From Tepidimonas alkaliphilus (GTDB lineage Bacteria > Pseudomonadota > Gammaproteobacteria > Burkholderiales > Burkholderiaceae_C): a stretch of 64,000 nucleotides of DNA. The notes under the pieces are model-generated. The model was not told the DNA's origin and ran no database searches. It worked only from the letters and a program-made list of their open reading frames with translations. Positions within the stretch are counted from its first letter, which is position 1. Each line of letters begins with the position of its first letter. The translations under genes were made by a program, and so were the position numbers. Below are positions 14,915-64,000 of this stretch, piece after piece. The stretch is taken from NCBI RefSeq assembly GCF_007556595.1, contig NZ_VJNB01000002.1, forward strand, positions 124,001-188,000. Direction: 5' to 3'.

Positions 14915-15027
14915 GCTCGGACTCCTCGTCATCGGCGTGAGTGCCAAGTATCCGCCAAAACGGTGACAGGGGTGCAACCTCGCCGCGGGGCCTTCGGGTG
15001 CGTTTTGATGAACATCAAGAGCGCGCC

Positions 15028-44934: not shown

Positions 44935-45729
44935 ATGCACCTCACCCCAGCACACGCTGAAGGCGCATGGCCCTTGCCGCGCTGGATCGCGCACCGTGGC
45001 GCCGGCAAAAAGGCGCCTGAAAACACGCTGGCGGCGTTTGAACTGGGCTGGCGGTCGGGCTGGCGCGCGTTTGAATGCGACGTCAAGCTCTCCGCCGACG
45101 GCGTGCCATTTTTGCTGCACGACGCGACGTTGGAGCGCACCACCAACGGGCGCGGCCCAGCCGGCGCGTTGCCATGGGCCGAGCTGGCGCAGCTGGATGC
45201 GGGGCGCTGGCACAGTCCTGCCTTTGCGGGCGAGCCGCTGCTGCGCTTGGATCGCCTGGCCGCATGGGCGCTGGAGCGTGGGGCCTGGCTCAACCTGGAA
45301 ATCAAGCCGTCGCCCGGTACGGAAACGCGCACCGGCGCCGAAGTGGCGCGCGCCGCAGGGGCGCTGTGGCGCGCGCACGGCGCCGGCCAGCCCGGTGGGC
45401 CGGCTTGGCCGCTGTTGACCTCGTTTCAGCCCGCCGCCTTGCAAGCGGCGCAAGAGGCAGCCCCGCAGCTGCCGCGCGGCCTGCTGCTGGATCGTTTGTG
45501 GCCCGGCTGCTGGGCCGTGGCGCGCAGTCTGGGCTGCGTGGCGGTGGTGTTGAACCACCGTCTCTGCAACGCCGGGCTGCTGGCTCAGCTGCGCTCGATG
45601 GGCTGGTGCACGCTGGCCTACACCGTCAACGATGCCGTCCGCGCCGAAACGCTGCTCGGCTGGGGGCTGGATGCGATCATCACCGATGAGGTGGAAACCC
45701 TGGGGCCGGGCCGGCCCGCCAACGCTTGA
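44935..45729 (+). CDS. ugpQ: Glycerophosphodiester phosphodiesterase (UgpQ type)
   Basis: Cytosolic TIM-barrel GDPD hydrolysing glycerophosphodiesters brought in by the Ugp transporter to G3P and an alcohol. 264 residues from ATG 44935. Catalytic blocks: IAHRGAGKKAPENTLAAF, FECDVKLSADGVPFLLHD, LERTTNG, LNLEIKPS, and the C-terminal AYTVND and DAIITDEVE. No signal peptide. Last gene of the ugp run; its stop codon overlaps an FNR-type box belonging to the next gene. Confidence 0.94.
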   Translation: MHLTPAHAEGAWPLPRWIAHRGAGKKAPENTLAAFELGWRSGWRAFECDVKLSADGVPFLLHDATLERTTNGRGPAGALPWAELAQLDAGRWHSPAFAGEPLLRLDRLAAWALERGAWLNLEIKPSPGTETRTGAEVARAAGALWRAHGAGQPGGPAWPLLTSFQPAALQAAQEAAPQLPRGLLLDRLWPGCWAVARSLGCVAVVLNHRLCNAGLLAQLRSMGWCTLAYTVNDAVRAETLLGWGLDAIITDEVETLGPGRPANA

Positions 45730-45739
45730 TCAAAATCAA
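45726..45739 (+). promoter_or_regulatory. Perfect FNR/Anr/Dnr-type box upstream of the copper receptor
   Basis: TTGAT-CAAA-ATCAA matches the palindromic FNR-family consensus TTGATN4ATCAA at all ten fixed positions. It is centred about 88 bases before the GTG of the TonB-dependent receptor, leaving room for a class II promoter (site at about -41) and a leader of about 45 bases. It overlaps the ugpQ stop codon. Activation under oxygen limitation or by NO is inferred from the motif. Confidence 0.75.
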
Positions 45740-45820
45740 CGGGTTTGACCCGACGGCACGGTCGCCGCACACTCGCACGCCAAACGTTCAACCCTCGGTG
45801 TTGCGAAGAAGGAGACCCAG

Positions 45821-48109
45821 GTGCCGACGAAGTCCAACGCCATCCGCCGGCCCGCCCCACATGGGGCCTTGGTGATGTCCGCCGTTGCCACCGCCGCGCT
45901 GGCCTGGAGCCCCGCCGCTGCAGCGCAGGCGCAGGCCGATGCGGCGCTGCCGGACGTGCAGGTTCATGCGCCGCGCGAGACCGACCTGCCCCGTGGACAG
46001 GCAGTGCAACCCCGCCGCGCGCGCCCGGTCAGCGCCGACGTCAGCGAAGCGCTCGCGGAAGTGCCCGGCGCCTACACGCTGGAAGCCGGCGGCCTGTCAC
46101 GCTTGCCCGTCCTGCGTGGCCTGGGCGATGAGCGGCTGCGGCTGCAAATCGATGGCATGGATTTGTATGCCGCTTGCCCCAACCACATGAACACGCCGCT
46201 GTCCTACCTCGACCCCAGCCAGGTGGAACGCTTGCAAGTCTGGGCCGGCCTGGCGCCGGTGTCGGCGGGGGGCGATGCCATCGGCGGCGTGGTGGCGGCG
46301 CAGACGCCAGCGCCGACGTTTGCCGCTGCAGGCCAAACGCAAACCCAGGGCGACCTTGGACTGTACGCCCGCAGCAATGGCCACGCCTGGGGCCTGCGCC
46401 TGGGAGCGCAGCACGCCACGCAGCATTGGAGCCTCAGCTACCGTTTGGCCGCGGCTGAAGCGGACAACTACCGCGCCGGCGCAGCGTTCAAGACGTATGA
46501 TTTCACCGGGCGCGCGGGCCATGCCCTGCCGCGCGATGAAGTCGGCTCCAGCGCCTACCGCACGCGCAACCATATCCTTGGCTTGGCTTGGCAGGACGGC
46601 GCGCACCTGTGGGAAGCCAAGCTGTATGCGCAAGACATGCCGTATCAGCTGTATCCCAACCAGCGCATGGATCTGTTGGGCAATGACAGCACGAAGTTGA
46701 ACCTACGGTATCAGCAACGCACGGCGTGGGGCCAGTGGCAAGCCCGCCTGTGGCACGACAAGGTGCAGCACGCCATGGACTTTGGCCCCGACAAGCGCTA
46801 CTGGTATGGCATGGCCTCGGGCGGCGGCTCCAGCGTGGACGGTCGCCCATGCAGCCCGTTGGGACCGCAGTGCGCCGCGGGCATGCCGATGCTGACCGAC
46901 AGCGCCACCACCGGCGCCAAGGTGCAGGCCGAATGGGCTGTGAGCGAGCAGACGGTCGTGCGCGCCGGCGCCGAGCTGCACCGCTTCCGGTTGGACGACT
47001 ATTGGCCGCCGTCGGGCGGCGGCATGTGGCCCGGCACCTTCTGGAACATCCGCGATGGCCAGCGCGACCGCCACGCGCTCTACGCCGAGGTTCAGTGGAG
47101 CCCTGCACCGCTGTGGAGCGCGCAAGCCGGTCTGCGCGTCGAGCGCGTGCGCACCGATGCCGGGCCGGTGCAAGGCTACAGCGACGCGCCCAATGCCATG
47201 GGCCGGCAAACGCAAGACGCGCAGGCGTTCAACGCGTTGGATCGACGGCGGCGTTTCACCACGCACGACGTGGTGTTGTCGGCGCGCCACCAGCCGCGCT
47301 CCACGTTTGAGCTCGAGTTCGGCTTGGCACGTCGAGAGCGCGCCCCGGGCCTGTATGAGCTCTACCCATGGTCCACGTGGCAGATGGCAGCGCTGATGAA
47401 CAACTTCGTCGGCGACGGCAACGGCTACGTCGGCAACCCGAACCTGCGCTCTGAGCGGGCTTACACCGCCTCGGCCAGCGCTCAGTGGAAGGCAGCCAAC
47501 GACGCTTGGGCGATCAAGGTCGAGCCCCATGTCACCCAGGTGCGCGACTTCATTGACGCCGAGCGGCTGCCAGGTCAGTCCGGTGAGCGGCGTTTCGTGC
47601 TGCTGCGCTACGCCAACGTGCCGGCACGCTTGTATGGACTGGATCTCTCGGGCCGCGCGCTGCTGGCCCACGACCCTGCCAACCGCTGGGAACTGCGCGG
47701 CCAGCTCAGCCACCTCAAGGGCCGCAACCGCCGCAGCGGCGACGGACTCTACGCCATCATGCCGCTCAACGCCCGCCTGAGCCTGACGCACCAAACGGGC
47801 GCATGGGAAAGCACCGTGGAATGGGTGGCGGTCAAGGCCAAGACAGATGTTTCGAGCGTGCGCAACGAAGTGCCGACGCCTGGCTACGGGCTGATGAACG
47901 TGCGCGCCGCTTACCGCCTGGGCCGAGGCAAGCTGGAGTTTGGCATCGACAACGTGTTCGACCGTCTCTACGCCTTGCCCACCGGCGGGGCGTATGTGGG
48001 GCAAGGCACGACGATGACCAACCCGTCGCCGCCCAATGTGCCGCAATGGGGCATCGCGGTGCCTGGGCCAGGCCGCTCGCTTTGGCTGGCGTATCAGGTG
48101 GCGTTCTAA
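45821..48109 (+). CDS. TonB-dependent copper receptor, OprC/NosA-like
   Basis: Outer-membrane beta-barrel receptor of 762 residues with signal peptide, plug (about 60-165, GLGDERLRLQIDGMDLYAAC to GGDAIGGVVAA) and 22-strand barrel ending in aromatic-terminated LWLAYQVAF. The plug has CPNHM (C119-x3-M123) and the barrel has HAM (H317-x-M319); OprC binds copper through a CxxxM...HxM arrangement, so copper is the likely substrate. GTG start at 45821 with AAGGAGA upstream. NosA/OprC proteins are known from anaerobic, denitrifying growth, which fits the FNR box upstream. Another metal or chelate remains possible. Confidence 0.83.
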   Translation: MPTKSNAIRRPAPHGALVMSAVATAALAWSPAAAAQAQADAALPDVQVHAPRETDLPRGQAVQPRRARPVSADVSEALAEVPGAYTLEAGGLSRLPVLRGLGDERLRLQIDGMDLYAACPNHMNTPLSYLDPSQVERLQVWAGLAPVSAGGDAIGGVVAAQTPAPTFAAAGQTQTQGDLGLYARSNGHAWGLRLGAQHATQHWSLSYRLAAAEADNYRAGAAFKTYDFTGRAGHALPRDEVGSSAYRTRNHILGLAWQDGAHLWEAKLYAQDMPYQLYPNQRMDLLGNDSTKLNLRYQQRTAWGQWQARLWHDKVQHAMDFGPDKRYWYGMASGGGSSVDGRPCSPLGPQCAAGMPMLTDSATTGAKVQAEWAVSEQTVVRAGAELHRFRLDDYWPPSGGGMWPGTFWNIRDGQRDRHALYAEVQWSPAPLWSAQAGLRVERVRTDAGPVQGYSDAPNAMGRQTQDAQAFNALDRRRRFTTHDVVLSARHQPRSTFELEFGLARRERAPGLYELYPWSTWQMAALMNNFVGDGNGYVGNPNLRSERAYTASASAQWKAANDAWAIKVEPHVTQVRDFIDAERLPGQSGERRFVLLRYANVPARLYGLDLSGRALLAHDPANRWELRGQLSHLKGRNRRSGDGLYAIMPLNARLSLTHQTGAWESTVEWVAVKAKTDVSSVRNEVPTPGYGLMNVRAAYRLGRGKLEFGIDNVFDRLYALPTGGAYVGQGTTMTNPSPPNVPQWGIAVPGPGRSLWLAYQVAF

Positions 48110-61185: not shown

Positions 61186-61560
61186 TCAGCGGCGCGACGG
61201 CACCACTTTGCCTTGCGCCTCGTAATAAGCGGCGATGTTGACGATATCCCGATCGGTCAAAGGCTTGGCCATGGCTGTCATCGTGGGATCTTGGCGCGAT
61301 CCATCACGATAGGCCAGCAGCGCCTTTTGCAGGTAATCGGCAGGTTGACCCGCCAGGTGAGGCGTTGCTGGCAACACCGAGATCCCCTGCTCGCCATGGC
61401 AGGCAAAACAGACCGCAGCGCGTTTTTTACCGGCCCCAATATCGGCCGGCCCTACGCCAGCCAACGGGGTTTGGGCCTGGGTGGAAGCCCACAAGCCCCA
61501 ACCCAGCGCCACGACAACGAACCGGCGCCAACCTTTGCCGCACGTGCTTGTTTGCGTCAT
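61186..61560 (-). CDS. Small monoheme cytochrome c
   Basis: 124-residue secreted c-type cytochrome. A signal peptide ends near TQAQ (about 27-30); heme motif VCFACHG (CxxCH, about 50-54) and a distal methionine candidate in PTMTAMAKPLTDRDIVNIAAYY fit a class I, c553/c554-like fold. It is the last gene of a three-gene run after two CydA-superfamily membrane proteins and probably carries electrons to or from that complex. GAGGAG precedes the ATG at 61560; the run is more AT-rich than the rest of the window. Confidence 0.9.
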   Translation of the reverse strand: MTQTSTCGKGWRRFVVVALGWGLWASTQAQTPLAGVGPADIGAGKKRAAVCFACHGEQGISVLPATPHLAGQPADYLQKALLAYRDGSRQDPTMTAMAKPLTDRDIVNIAAYYEAQGKVVPSRR

Positions 61561-61571
61561 CCTTGCACTCC

Positions 61572-62792
61572 TCACAGAAACGAATTTCGTAACCAAATCA
61601 CGATGCCGTAAAGAAAGAAAACGGCAATCCAGAGCACCAACACCGCCACCGCCGCCGTGCCCAGGCGCGCCACCACCGGCTCCGCCCGATATAGGCCCAC
61701 CGTGCGACCGGCTCGATACAGCAGCGTCAAATAAAAGCCGCCCACCAGCCCTCCGATCCCCAGCAGCGTGCTGAAGAACAACCACGTGGAGGGCTCATCC
61801 GGGTGCACGGGGTAGTCCAGAATCGAGTAGCCATGCTGCCCTAGCAGCGCCACCCGCACAACCTCGCGCCAGACGGCCAGCAACAGCAACACCGCCACCC
61901 CTGCGGCCAAGGGCCCCCACCCAGCGCGGCCCGGCGCCCAGCGCCAAAGCCACAGCCCCATCGCCACCAAGGATGCCCCCAGCGCCCAACCGACGGGGTG
62001 TCCGCGCAGAAGCTCCGGCTGCGACCACTGCCAGATCAGCCAGGTCAGTGCGCTCAATCCCCAACCGGCTACAGCGAGCCGCCGCCCCAAACGCGCCACC
62101 CACTCACGCTCCTCAGAGGTTCGGTCGGATCGCGCCCCGACATACTGGGCGTACGCCAAAAGAAACACCCCCACCGCCGGCAACGACAAGCTGATCATGA
62201 AAACAAATCGCGGCCAGTCAATAGCGTGCAAACGGCTGCCGCTGGTGTCCACGATTCCACCGGGGGCATACCACGACACCCAGTCCTGTGGGCGCAGCGC
62301 CTGATAGGCCAAGGCATGCATGATGAGCCCATCCAGCACAAACAACGCCAAGGCCAGCCAAGCCCACATCACCACATGCCGGCGCGCCCCCTCTCGGTTG
62401 GCGTAATAAAACACAAACCAAGCACAGTAGCCCACAATCAATGTGGCAATAAAAGCGATTACCCAGGCGCCTGATAAGACATTCGAGACGTACCATTGAG
62501 GGTCATAAATCACCTGTGTGAACAGCAACGGAGCCACCCCGAGCACGATCAACAAGGACACCCCCACTTTGGCAACCTTGGTCATGGTCCATGACAGCCG
62601 CAACCATGAATCTTGAGGACCTCGAGATCGGTGGAACGCCACAATGGCCACCCCAGCAGATCCCAAAGTAAGATGCACAAAAGCAATGTGCAGCGCCCAG
62701 GTGATTACCATCAGTATTTGAAACAATACGGGAGGCGCCGGCAATCCAGCAGGATCGCGCAGCGCCTGCATGATCATTCCAGTGTCCATCAT
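61572..62792 (-). CDS. CydA-superfamily membrane protein (bd-like oxidase partner subunit)
   Basis: 406-residue integral membrane protein with about nine helices. The first helix region ALHIAFVHLTLG aligns with the CydA segment MYHFLFVPLTLG, whose His19 ligates a high-spin heme; the equivalent here is H35. A following block (VSLLIVLGVAPLLFTQVIYD about 75-94, then GAWVIAFIATL) resembles the CydA GVxTGxxxEFQFG region but lacks its glutamates. No Q-loop is seen. AGGAGGAG lies six bases before ATG 62792, and the stop of the upstream subunit is three bases before, so the two are coupled. CydA-type heme ligation is my reading by eye. Confidence 0.7.
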   Translation of the reverse strand: MMDTGMIMQALRDPAGLPAPPVLFQILMVITWALHIAFVHLTLGSAGVAIVAFHRSRGPQDSWLRLSWTMTKVAKVGVSLLIVLGVAPLLFTQVIYDPQWYVSNVLSGAWVIAFIATLIVGYCAWFVFYYANREGARRHVVMWAWLALALFVLDGLIMHALAYQALRPQDWVSWYAPGGIVDTSGSRLHAIDWPRFVFMISLSLPAVGVFLLAYAQYVGARSDRTSEEREWVARLGRRLAVAGWGLSALTWLIWQWSQPELLRGHPVGWALGASLVAMGLWLWRWAPGRAGWGPLAAGVAVLLLLAVWREVVRVALLGQHGYSILDYPVHPDEPSTWLFFSTLLGIGGLVGGFYLTLLYRAGRTVGLYRAEPVVARLGTAAVAVLVLWIAVFFLYGIVIWLRNSFL

Positions 62793-62795
62793 GGG

Positions 62796-64000
62796 TCACT
62801 CCTCCTGAGCCGAAGTCCATTGCGCCGAAACCTGGCGGCGCTGCTGCGCAATCAGCCGCTCTACGTTGTCACCACGGTTAACGGCAGCCAAATAATGCGC
62901 CACGGCTCGCGCCTCTTCCTCGGGCAAATCAATACGCGGCATATAGGGCTGTGTGCCGTGCTTGAGCGGGCCCTGTAAAAAAGCCAAGATCAAATCCTCA
63001 TCAACAGCGCGGTGCAGTTTGTCCGGGATGTTACGCAGCGGCGCACCGGGCTCCAACGCGTGGCAATTGGCGCAAGCGATTTTAGTCAGCAGTTGACCAA
63101 CCTCCAGTCGATTTTGATCAGTCACGGTACGCAACCGCTCGGGCACAAAGGGGTGCAGCTTCAAATACCCGTGCTCAGCTAGACGATCCACTTCCGCTTC
63201 AATGCCCTTGCCGGGCACGTCGCGCGCAATCACCTGATTGCTGTAGATGTATTGCCCTGCCACATAGGGCTTGCGCATGGATTCGCGCATGCGCTCTTCG
63301 GGCCAGACCCCGACGATTGCCACAAAAAGAAACACCGCAGCCGCCAAGGAAGCATGAATGCGCTGCGGTTGCCACCACGCAAACAGCAACCACAACGTTG
63401 CCACCGCAAAAACGGCGACCATGCCTTGCGCATAGACGGGCTTGAGGTGCGCATGCAGCATCACGATGGCGTTTTGCGGCAGGGTCTGCAGATAGTAAAA
63501 AAACATCATCACTGCGAACAAGCCGCCCACCAGGCCTATGGGCGCCAAAAAGCGCACCACTTCGCGGCGCAACTCCAAATCCCGCATGCGACTGGCCACC
63601 ATCAGTCCGACCACCACCGCCATGACGAACATCGATCCGGTGCGAGTACCCAAATGAGCAAAGAAGTTTAAGTTGTAGAACGCGTCGTTGGTGGAGCCGG
63701 TCAGGTACCACCCGTCATGCCCGGGCCACATCATGAAAGAAAGGATCCCCACAATCAACAACATGGTCGCCCACGACGCCAGCGCAAACGACCAGGTCAG
63801 CTTCAAATGGGTTTTCGCATCCACTTTACCAATCAGGTAAACCAGCGCATAAACGCCGATCACCTCCACGGTGAAGTAAACCCATTCCGCCGCCCATACC
63901 CATACAAAGTTATGAATCAATCCACCAACACCGCGCGGACTGGCCACCGTGATGGCATACCAGATGCCGGGCCCAGTGATCGATCCAATAATGTAGGAAA
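62796..64000 (-). CDS. CydA-like membrane subunit fused to a C-terminal cytochrome c domain (partial, N-terminus beyond window)
   Basis: About 400 codons are visible; the 5' end is cut by the window edge. The visible N-terminal part has five or six helices with CydA-like features: two Glu residues (63885-63887 and 63864-63866) in AAEWVYFTVEV, matching the CydA proton-path pair spaced 7-8 apart, and a His at 63655-63657 in FFAHLGTRTGSMF, matching FVHTVASGYVTGA where CydA ligates heme b558. No quinol Q-loop is seen. The C-terminal 110 residues form a cytochrome c with CANCH (about 63058-63074). This layout fits proposed cytochrome-c-linked (OR-C type) members of the bd superfamily. Confidence 0.72.
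   Translation of the reverse strand, partial: SYIIGSITGPGIWYAITVASPRGVGGLIHNFVWVWAAEWVYFTVEVIGVYALVYLIGKVDAKTHLKLTWSFALASWATMLLIVGILSFMMWPGHDGWYLTGSTNDAFYNLNFFAHLGTRTGSMFVMAVVVGLMVASRMRDLELRREVVRFLAPIGLVGGLFAVMMFFYYLQTLPQNAIVMLHAHLKPVYAQGMVAVFAVATLWLLFAWWQPQRIHASLAAAVFLFVAIVGVWPEERMRESMRKPYVAGQYIYSNQVIARDVPGKGIEAEVDRLAEHGYLKLHPFVPERLRTVTDQNRLEVGQLLTKIACANCHALEPGAPLRNIPDKLHRAVDEDLILAFLQGPLKHGTQPYMPRIDLPEEEARAVAHYLAAVNRGDNVERLIAQQRRQVSAQWTSAQEE

Follow-up and report, generated by a model that had tools for sequence, protein, structure and literature searches.

A predicted heme c-bearing oxidase operon of the cytochrome bd superfamily behind a copper-sensor-like leader in Tepidimonas alkaliphilus

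The stretch of DNA analyzed here, termed the window, comprises 64,000 nucleotides of the 2.46 Mb genome of Tepidimonas alkaliphilus (contig NZ_VJNB01000002.1, positions 124,001 to 188,000; G000:C12:124001-188000 in our numbering). At its end lies a minus-strand operon for a predicted respiratory membrane enzyme, consisting of two proteins that resemble CydA, designated subunits I and II, and a small cytochrome c (Table 1). A preliminary description of the window had read these as three coupled genes for two CydA-superfamily membrane proteins, one with a C-terminal CxxCH domain, and a separate monoheme cytochrome c. This reading is borne out. The open reading frames (ORFs) are separated by 3 nucleotides (nt) between subunits I and II and by 11 nt between subunit II and the cytochrome c. 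The cytochrome has one CxxCH and matches Pfam Cytochrom_C at 1.9e-7 when the longer open frame is scanned, and the two membrane proteins are related to CydA by profile comparison and bd-type fold matches. The window cuts subunit I. Extension past position 64000 completes it to 472 amino acids (aa), with the ATG at window coordinate 64214 and 214 bases of the 5′ end outside the window.

Table 1. Predicted genes of the operon and its upstream leader, in window coordinates
Feature	Position	Strand	Basis
Monoheme cytochrome c (124 aa), encoded by gene 3; candidate electron donor	61186-61560	minus	ORF and sequence, one CxxCH
OR-C-like subunit II (406 aa), the other CydA-like membrane protein, lacking a heme c motif	61572-62792	minus	ORF, model, alignment
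OR-C-like subunit I, CydA-like, 8 transmembrane helices and C-terminal CxxCH domain	62796-64000, on past window end	minus	ORF, model, alignment
DUF2946/CruR-like leader ORF, 136 aa	64474-64884, outside window	minus	Pfam DUF2946; 259-nt gap to subunit I

Relatives of the operon were compared at 93 loci, which are the best 80 of at least 580 relatives from a scan of named genomes plus 13 from other searches; a fragment (L023) and a second Thermus plasmid (L028) were excluded. Neighboring genes were judged by conservation, similarity, and family scans, as gene calling by GC bias gave antisense artifacts. In all 93 loci, a subunit II match stands next to subunit I, so the pairing is not due to chance. 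Subunit I is found in 10 of 369 genomes of a broad class sample at E up to 1e-10 and in 16 of 399 genomes of a family sample at E up to 1e-30, our genome being counted in both.

The relationship to cytochrome bd was examined by profile and structure comparison. Subunit I matches Pfam CydA (PF01654) weakly, with 23.7 bits and E 1.5e-5, below the cut-off of 26.2 bits. In hhalign, its profile of 46 sequences aligns with 17 CydA sequences at E 5e-5 (probability 68%), whereas subunit II aligns with subunit I at E 3.1e-6 (88%) and with CydA at E 0.0013 (18%). Subunit II falls into no Pfam or NCBIfam family at E up to 1, and a sequence search of PDB chains returns no relative (best E 0.81, chance level). 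The AlphaFold model of subunit I (predicted local distance difference test score, pLDDT, 78) has eight membrane helices followed by a C-terminal domain, and the seven PDB chains that it matches at E<=0.001 all belong to cytochrome bd oxidases. The model of subunit II (pLDDT 94) yields four matches at the same threshold, all of them bd oxidase chains and, by chain letter, from both subunits. Chains of bd oxidases, rather than of another fold, are the best PDB matches of both models.

Conservation was counted in structure alignments of 45 sequences for subunit I and 44 for subunit II. Nine residues of subunit I are invariant: H29, E110, E117, R191, E311, R314, C381, C384, and H385. The last three form the heme c motif C381-x-x-C384-H385, for which M425, a Met in 43/45 sequences, is a candidate second ligand. 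hhalign pairs H29 with CydA H19, E117 with E107, and position 187 with H186, and E110 is matched to E99 by position only. When the C-terminal helices are compared separately, RESMRKP is paired with AEYGRQP, that is, E311/R314 with E445/R448. Counterparts of E99 and E445/R448 are probably kept. The CydA-like histidines and Glu pair noted in the preliminary description are found in part. H29, E110, and E117 are present in all 45 sequences, including the completed window protein, but the place of H186 is occupied by His in only 28 of them (the window protein included) and by Gln in the other 17, and M393 has no counterpart. The conserved Met residues of subunit I are at 161, 162, 195, and 425, and none lies in TM7, where M393 would be. 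No Q-loop was visible in the window, and none is present in the complete model, in which the TM6-TM7 link, the site of the CydA Q-loop, spans 15 residues (244-258). Subunit II retains H35, H159, R195, E310, and R313 in 44/44 sequences and H189 in 43/44. We read these patterns in the alignments and models as a di-heme site that is likely kept, a heme b558 and quinol site that are likely lost, and a heme c that has been added. A second His of subunit I, H34, lies five residues after H29, is His in 44/45 sequences, and faces a Pro of E. coli CydA in the profile alignment.

Cytochrome bd oxidases are textbook quinol oxidases. The OR-C family, reportedly described by Murali, Gennis, and Hemp in 2021, is said to comprise members of the bd superfamily that have no quinol site and carry heme c. 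The OR-C family is cited in several papers (PMC10839748, PMC13189123, PMC11707229). The window enzyme is likened to it by features rather than by family profiles, and no subfamily is assigned. It is like canonical CydAB in its fold and active-site residues but unlike it in the lack of a Q-loop and conserved b558 ligands, in the added heme c, and in the absence of any CydB match in the genome; the Q-loop, a conserved H186/M393 ligand pair, and the CydB partner that characterize canonical CydAB are not found in the enzyme or its genome. Taken together, the fold, the kept active-site residues, the missing Q-loop, the nonconserved b558 ligands, and the invariant heme c motif support the proposal of the preliminary description that this is an OR-C-like member of the bd family fed by cytochrome c.

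The genome was also scanned for other oxidases. CydB (PF02322) has no match genome-wide, in agreement with the earlier failure to see one in the window, and the sole PF01654 match is the window copy itself, below cut-off. Two COX1-family matches are present. One, over cut-off, is ccoN of a cbb3 oxidase, and the other follows a coxB-like gene and is aa3-type by our reading; their family makes both of them copper enzymes. Among the CydA, CydB, and COX1 families, to which the scan was confined, the two OR-C-like operons of this genome (the second is described below) appear to be the only copper-free oxidases.

The ORF upstream of subunit I matches Pfam DUF2946 with 36.4 bits (cut-off 23.7) and carries CxxC at residue 79 and RAPP at residue 130, a spacing of 51. 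The genome contains two DUF2946 matches, this leader and one that precedes an SCO1/SenC copper chaperone gene. In a quick subunit I tree (LG+G4, support by the approximate likelihood ratio test SH-aLRT only), the 93 loci form a 25-row clade marked by fccB, a 34-row clade, mainly of Campylobacterota, that lacks both fccB and leader, a 19-row clade that contains the window copy (support 100), and 15 other rows. A same-strand leader stands directly upstream in 12 of the 19 window-clade loci, with 49-51 residues between CxxC and R[AG]PP and with R[AG]PP 2-7 residues before the ORF end. Across all loci, both motifs occur in 13/247 upstream ORFs versus 7/5,636 other ORFs. Of the 66 loci from other clades for which 850 nt or more of upstream sequence is available, none has the leader (Fisher 3.8e-10). 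L083 and L090, whose subunit I is the same as in L015 and L016, and loci with less than 850 nt upstream were left out of this group from other clades, and L149, which carries a leader equal to that of L032, was not counted. Both beta-proteobacterial ORFs tested with Pfam (the window and L030) are DUF2946-positive, and the one alpha-proteobacterial leader ORF tested (L044) gives no Pfam match. On an Agrobacterium plasmid, the small ORF that immediately precedes the operon was considered and is no leader. Small cytochrome c ORFs follow subunit II in relatives of the window clade as well. The sequence data suggest that the operon is headed by what resembles a copper-sensing switch.

CruR of Bordetella pertussis is a DUF2946 nascent-peptide sensor; once it binds copper, transcription of the downstream copper-uptake genes stops (PMC9426467). 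The window leader shares with CruR the DUF2946 domain, the CxxC, the RAPP near the C-terminus, and the first position in the operon. The motif spacing is 49 in CruR (C90, R139) versus 51 here, and the downstream gap is long in both cases, at 162 nt in CruR and 259 nt in the window. However, CruR governs a copper-uptake receptor, whereas the window leader precedes genes for a predicted copper-free oxidase. The CruR-type neighborhoods listed in that work include receptors, PepSY, SCO, PCuAC, YcnI, CopC, methanobactin-related genes, and AhpC, with no bd-type oxidase mentioned in the accessible part of the list (PMC9426467). Another DUF2946 protein, CutF, acts in the opposite sense, in that copper switches its downstream gene on via a stem-loop (PMC9973294). 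The gap between the leader and subunit I folds no better than shuffled sequences, which speaks against a stem-loop of the CutF type. Because the gap is without unusual fold and is long as in CruR, induction by copper scarcity is favored, and we infer that the leader would turn the oxidase operon on when copper is scarce.

A copper response has been published for a probable member of the family. MCA1187 of Methylococcus capsulatus resembles CydA, has a CxxCH motif and eight helices, and belongs to a copper-responsive cluster with a diheme cytochrome, a pyrophosphatase, and soluble methane monooxygenase (sMMO) genes (PMC4831470). It is listed at 28.3, its expression is described as rising dramatically in copper-limited cells, and only in these cells did the inner membrane yield its peptides (PMC4831470). 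By its authors' statement, MCA1187, like window subunit I, keeps H19 and the Glu pair and has no Q-loop and no H186/M393 (PMC4831470). The authors postulated a "cytochrome cbd" as a copper-independent cytochrome c oxidase and viewed it as possibly the primary terminal oxidase under copper limitation, when cytochrome caa3 falls (PMC4831470). The preliminary description called OR-C-type enzymes little characterized. Both the enzyme family and the idea of cytochrome c as donor were already in print for MCA1187 (PMC4831470), and the family later appeared under the name OR-C. MCA1187-MCA1185 are tied to the present family by gene order at locus L018 and not by sequence comparison. L018 has subunit I, subunit II, a diheme-type cytochrome c, a pyrophosphatase, SCO, PCuAC, and a methane/phenol hydroxylase gene, and the subunit I proteins of L018 and the window share 46.9% identity. 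Since L018 shows the gene order of MCA1187, one probable member of the family has been reported to be repressed by copper. L018 itself belongs to the clade of the second Tepidimonas copy rather than to the window clade, and a motif scan detects no CruR-type leader there. sMMO genes also lie near L022, as they do near L018. PCuAC matches occur in 8 of the 93 loci, with L036, L041, L018, and L039 confirmed by Pfam. Growth of B. pertussis in the absence of copper requires CydAB, which is copper-free (PMC12914433).

We propose, with a probability of about 60%, that the window operon encodes a copper-free terminal oxidase of the bd superfamily that is fed by cytochrome c and placed under a CruR-type leader so as to replace copper oxidases. 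In the proposed mechanism, the small cytochrome c would reduce the C-terminal heme c of subunit I, which would hand the electron on to a pair of high-spin hemes in the CydA-type core (H29, E110, E117, and E311/R314), the predicted site of O2 reduction to water. The duplicated CydA-like protein, subunit II, would stand in for CydB. At low copper, the ribosome would stall at the C-terminal RAPP of the leader and transcription would continue into the oxidase genes; with copper on the leader CxxC, stalling would end and Rho would halt transcription. The cell could in this way swap its aa3-type and cbb3 oxidases for the bd-type enzyme at their shared entry point, cytochrome c. Whether the whole scheme holds, with a CruR-type sensor exchanging heme-copper for bd-type oxidase at one point of the chain and a sister copy working as a self-contained sulfide-to-oxygen module, we regard as evenly balanced. 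O2 as substrate, cytochrome c as donor, the heme types, the polarity of the leader, and the individual catalytic steps are predicted here, whereas the genes, residues, missing Q-loop, modeled fold, and leader motifs with their restriction to one clade among the loci examined are observed.

Several observations weigh against this proposal. The hhalign probabilities are modest (68% for subunit I with CydA, 18% for subunit II with CydA, and 88% between the subunits), and the TM-scores of the fold matches are ~0.4-0.6. The E311/R314 pairing is a local match of 12 columns with E 0.019, and E110 lies 7 residues before E117 whereas E99 lies 8 before E107, a pair that hhalign left unaligned. The leader count is not blind, because the ORFs were first recognized by similarity, and the Fisher test treats related loci as independent; mapping the leader label on the tree requires 7 changes. 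Seven of the 19 clade loci have no leader by the motif test, three of them (L033, L039, and L040) with less than 1.3 kb upstream and four with more than 5 kb. Among these seven, a PCuAC match immediately precedes the operon at L039 and L040, and L026 has methanobactin genes within ~9 kb, while no copper-related gene was recognized near L033, L034, L037, or L042. PCuAC as a whole is near only 8/93 loci. The gap between leader and subunit I shows ordinary RNA folding (z 0.19; 119 of 200 shuffled sequences fold equally well) and no clear Rho site, C exceeding G at leader nt 160-280 and slightly at 520-600 in the gap, a comparison made without a control. The opposite action of CutF tells against a firm assignment of the leader's polarity, and no biochemical assay for the clade was found in the literature searched.

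The same genome contains a second OR-C-like copy (operon C1:386706-391169, L014), which bears on the role of the first. Its subunit I (C1:389835-391169) is 48.5% identical to that of the window, 97.8% identical to that of Tepidimonas aquatica, and falls in the fccB clade. The genes that follow encode a cytochrome c, FccB, and FccA, and FccB matches FCSD_central at 2.1e-36 and FCSD-flav_bind at 1.3e-16, so that this operon is possibly a self-contained sulfide-to-oxygen chain. fccB matches beside the operon occur in 23 of the 93 loci, all within the 25-row clade, which contains two pairs with identical subunit I; its two rows without fccB are L100, which ends within subunit II, and L018, flanked on either side by ~7 kb or more. 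A copy of each kind is likewise present in Tepidimonas sp. MAG_5 (L030 and L106). These genes raise an alternative, namely that the enzyme serves chiefly for respiration amid sulfide, with cytochrome c reduced by flavocytochrome c sulfide dehydrogenase (FCSD) feeding a sulfide-resistant oxidase and the copper genes being incidental. The resistance of canonical cytochrome bd to sulfide (PMC6096048) is consistent with this view. However, the 19 window-clade loci show no fccB match in the stretches available, several of which are short, and 12 of them carry the leader. The sulfide explanation fits the sister copy better than the window copy, and for the latter we consider it unlikely. Under our copper-scarcity proposal, the window copy would work during copper shortage, and the second copy would take electrons from sulfide via FccAB and cytochrome c. 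A further FCSD gene match lies at C3:2699-2896.

The complex could also reduce an acceptor other than O2, such as nitric oxide or peroxide, with the di-heme site acting as a detoxification center. Enzymes of the bd type have been linked to the handling of both compounds, and no O2 assay for the clade was found in the literature searched. On the other hand, RegB/RegA-like genes lie beside L026, L029, L047, and L048 (at L026, the best NCBIfam matches are ActS/PrrB and ActR/PrrA, below cut-off), and the published view of MCA1187 as the possible primary terminal oxidase under copper limitation (PMC4831470) also disfavors this alternative, which we find improbable. It is very improbable that the complex couples cytochrome c and quinone like alternative complex III, a role once suggested for bd-like Nitrospina oxidases without a Q-loop (PMC3578206), as the Q-loop is absent from the subunit I model, H29, E110, and E117 are invariant in 45/45 sequences, and alternative complex III chains, although among the fold matches of the models, are outscored by bd chains.

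Genes for a predicted copper-free oxidase behind a copper-sensor-like leader suggest a stand-in for copper-dependent oxidases, and the leader makes copper control of the oxidase directly testable. Such control, if true, would mean that the CruR mechanism reaches beyond copper uptake to the swap of respiratory enzymes. With a bd branch fed by cytochrome c, a different range of substrates would be open to respiration when copper is lacking or sulfide is present, and the flavocytochrome c operon suggests a compact sulfide-oxidizing chain in sulfur bacteria of several families. Neither a DUF2946 leader before a bd-type oxidase nor an operon of fcc with OR-C genes was met in the literature searched, which did not cover the main paper on the family, so that prior mention of either is possible.

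A candidate regulator site was set aside. An FNR-type box at 64888-64901 (L002 5888-5901, outside the window) is a perfect palindrome, and the genome contains 5 perfect FNR-type sites versus 0 for the reversed control. We did not build on this box because it abuts the predicted leader start, because it lies between the leader and a divergent histidine kinase gene that it could serve, and because sites with at most one mismatch occur within 2.2 kb upstream in only 2/19 clade loci. Another perfect FNR-type box is at window position 15005-15018, near genes that read as apt-like and cheW-like. A third lies upstream of a TonB-dependent receptor gene (45726-48106) that resembles the copper-receptor family below cut-off. 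A link between this receptor and the operon was dropped: the match is 126 bits versus a cut-off of 472, and among the 93 loci only L047 has a close match and L089 a weak one.

Some loci have neighbors of a regulatory kind. A MarR-family gene precedes four window-clade loci, and at L032 it matches the GbsR-type CudC best in NCBIfam, though below cut-off. In Alishewanella, cytochrome bd is under the control of a GbsR-type regulator (PMC6096048). At L047 (Thiomicrorhabdus cannonii), genes that read as GTPase-like and Fur-like lie nearby, along with PCuAC and RegBA matches and a TonB receptor 39% identical to that of the window, making this perhaps a metal-responsive neighborhood. L029, on the Agrobacterium plasmid pLN1-183666, which is typed as conjugative, is a distant relative placed between a DUF1775 gene and the RegB/RegA-like genes. 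In a genome of the same family as T. alkaliphilus, a subunit I match is split (G518:C1:2589897-2593907), with ~2.8 kb between the pieces.

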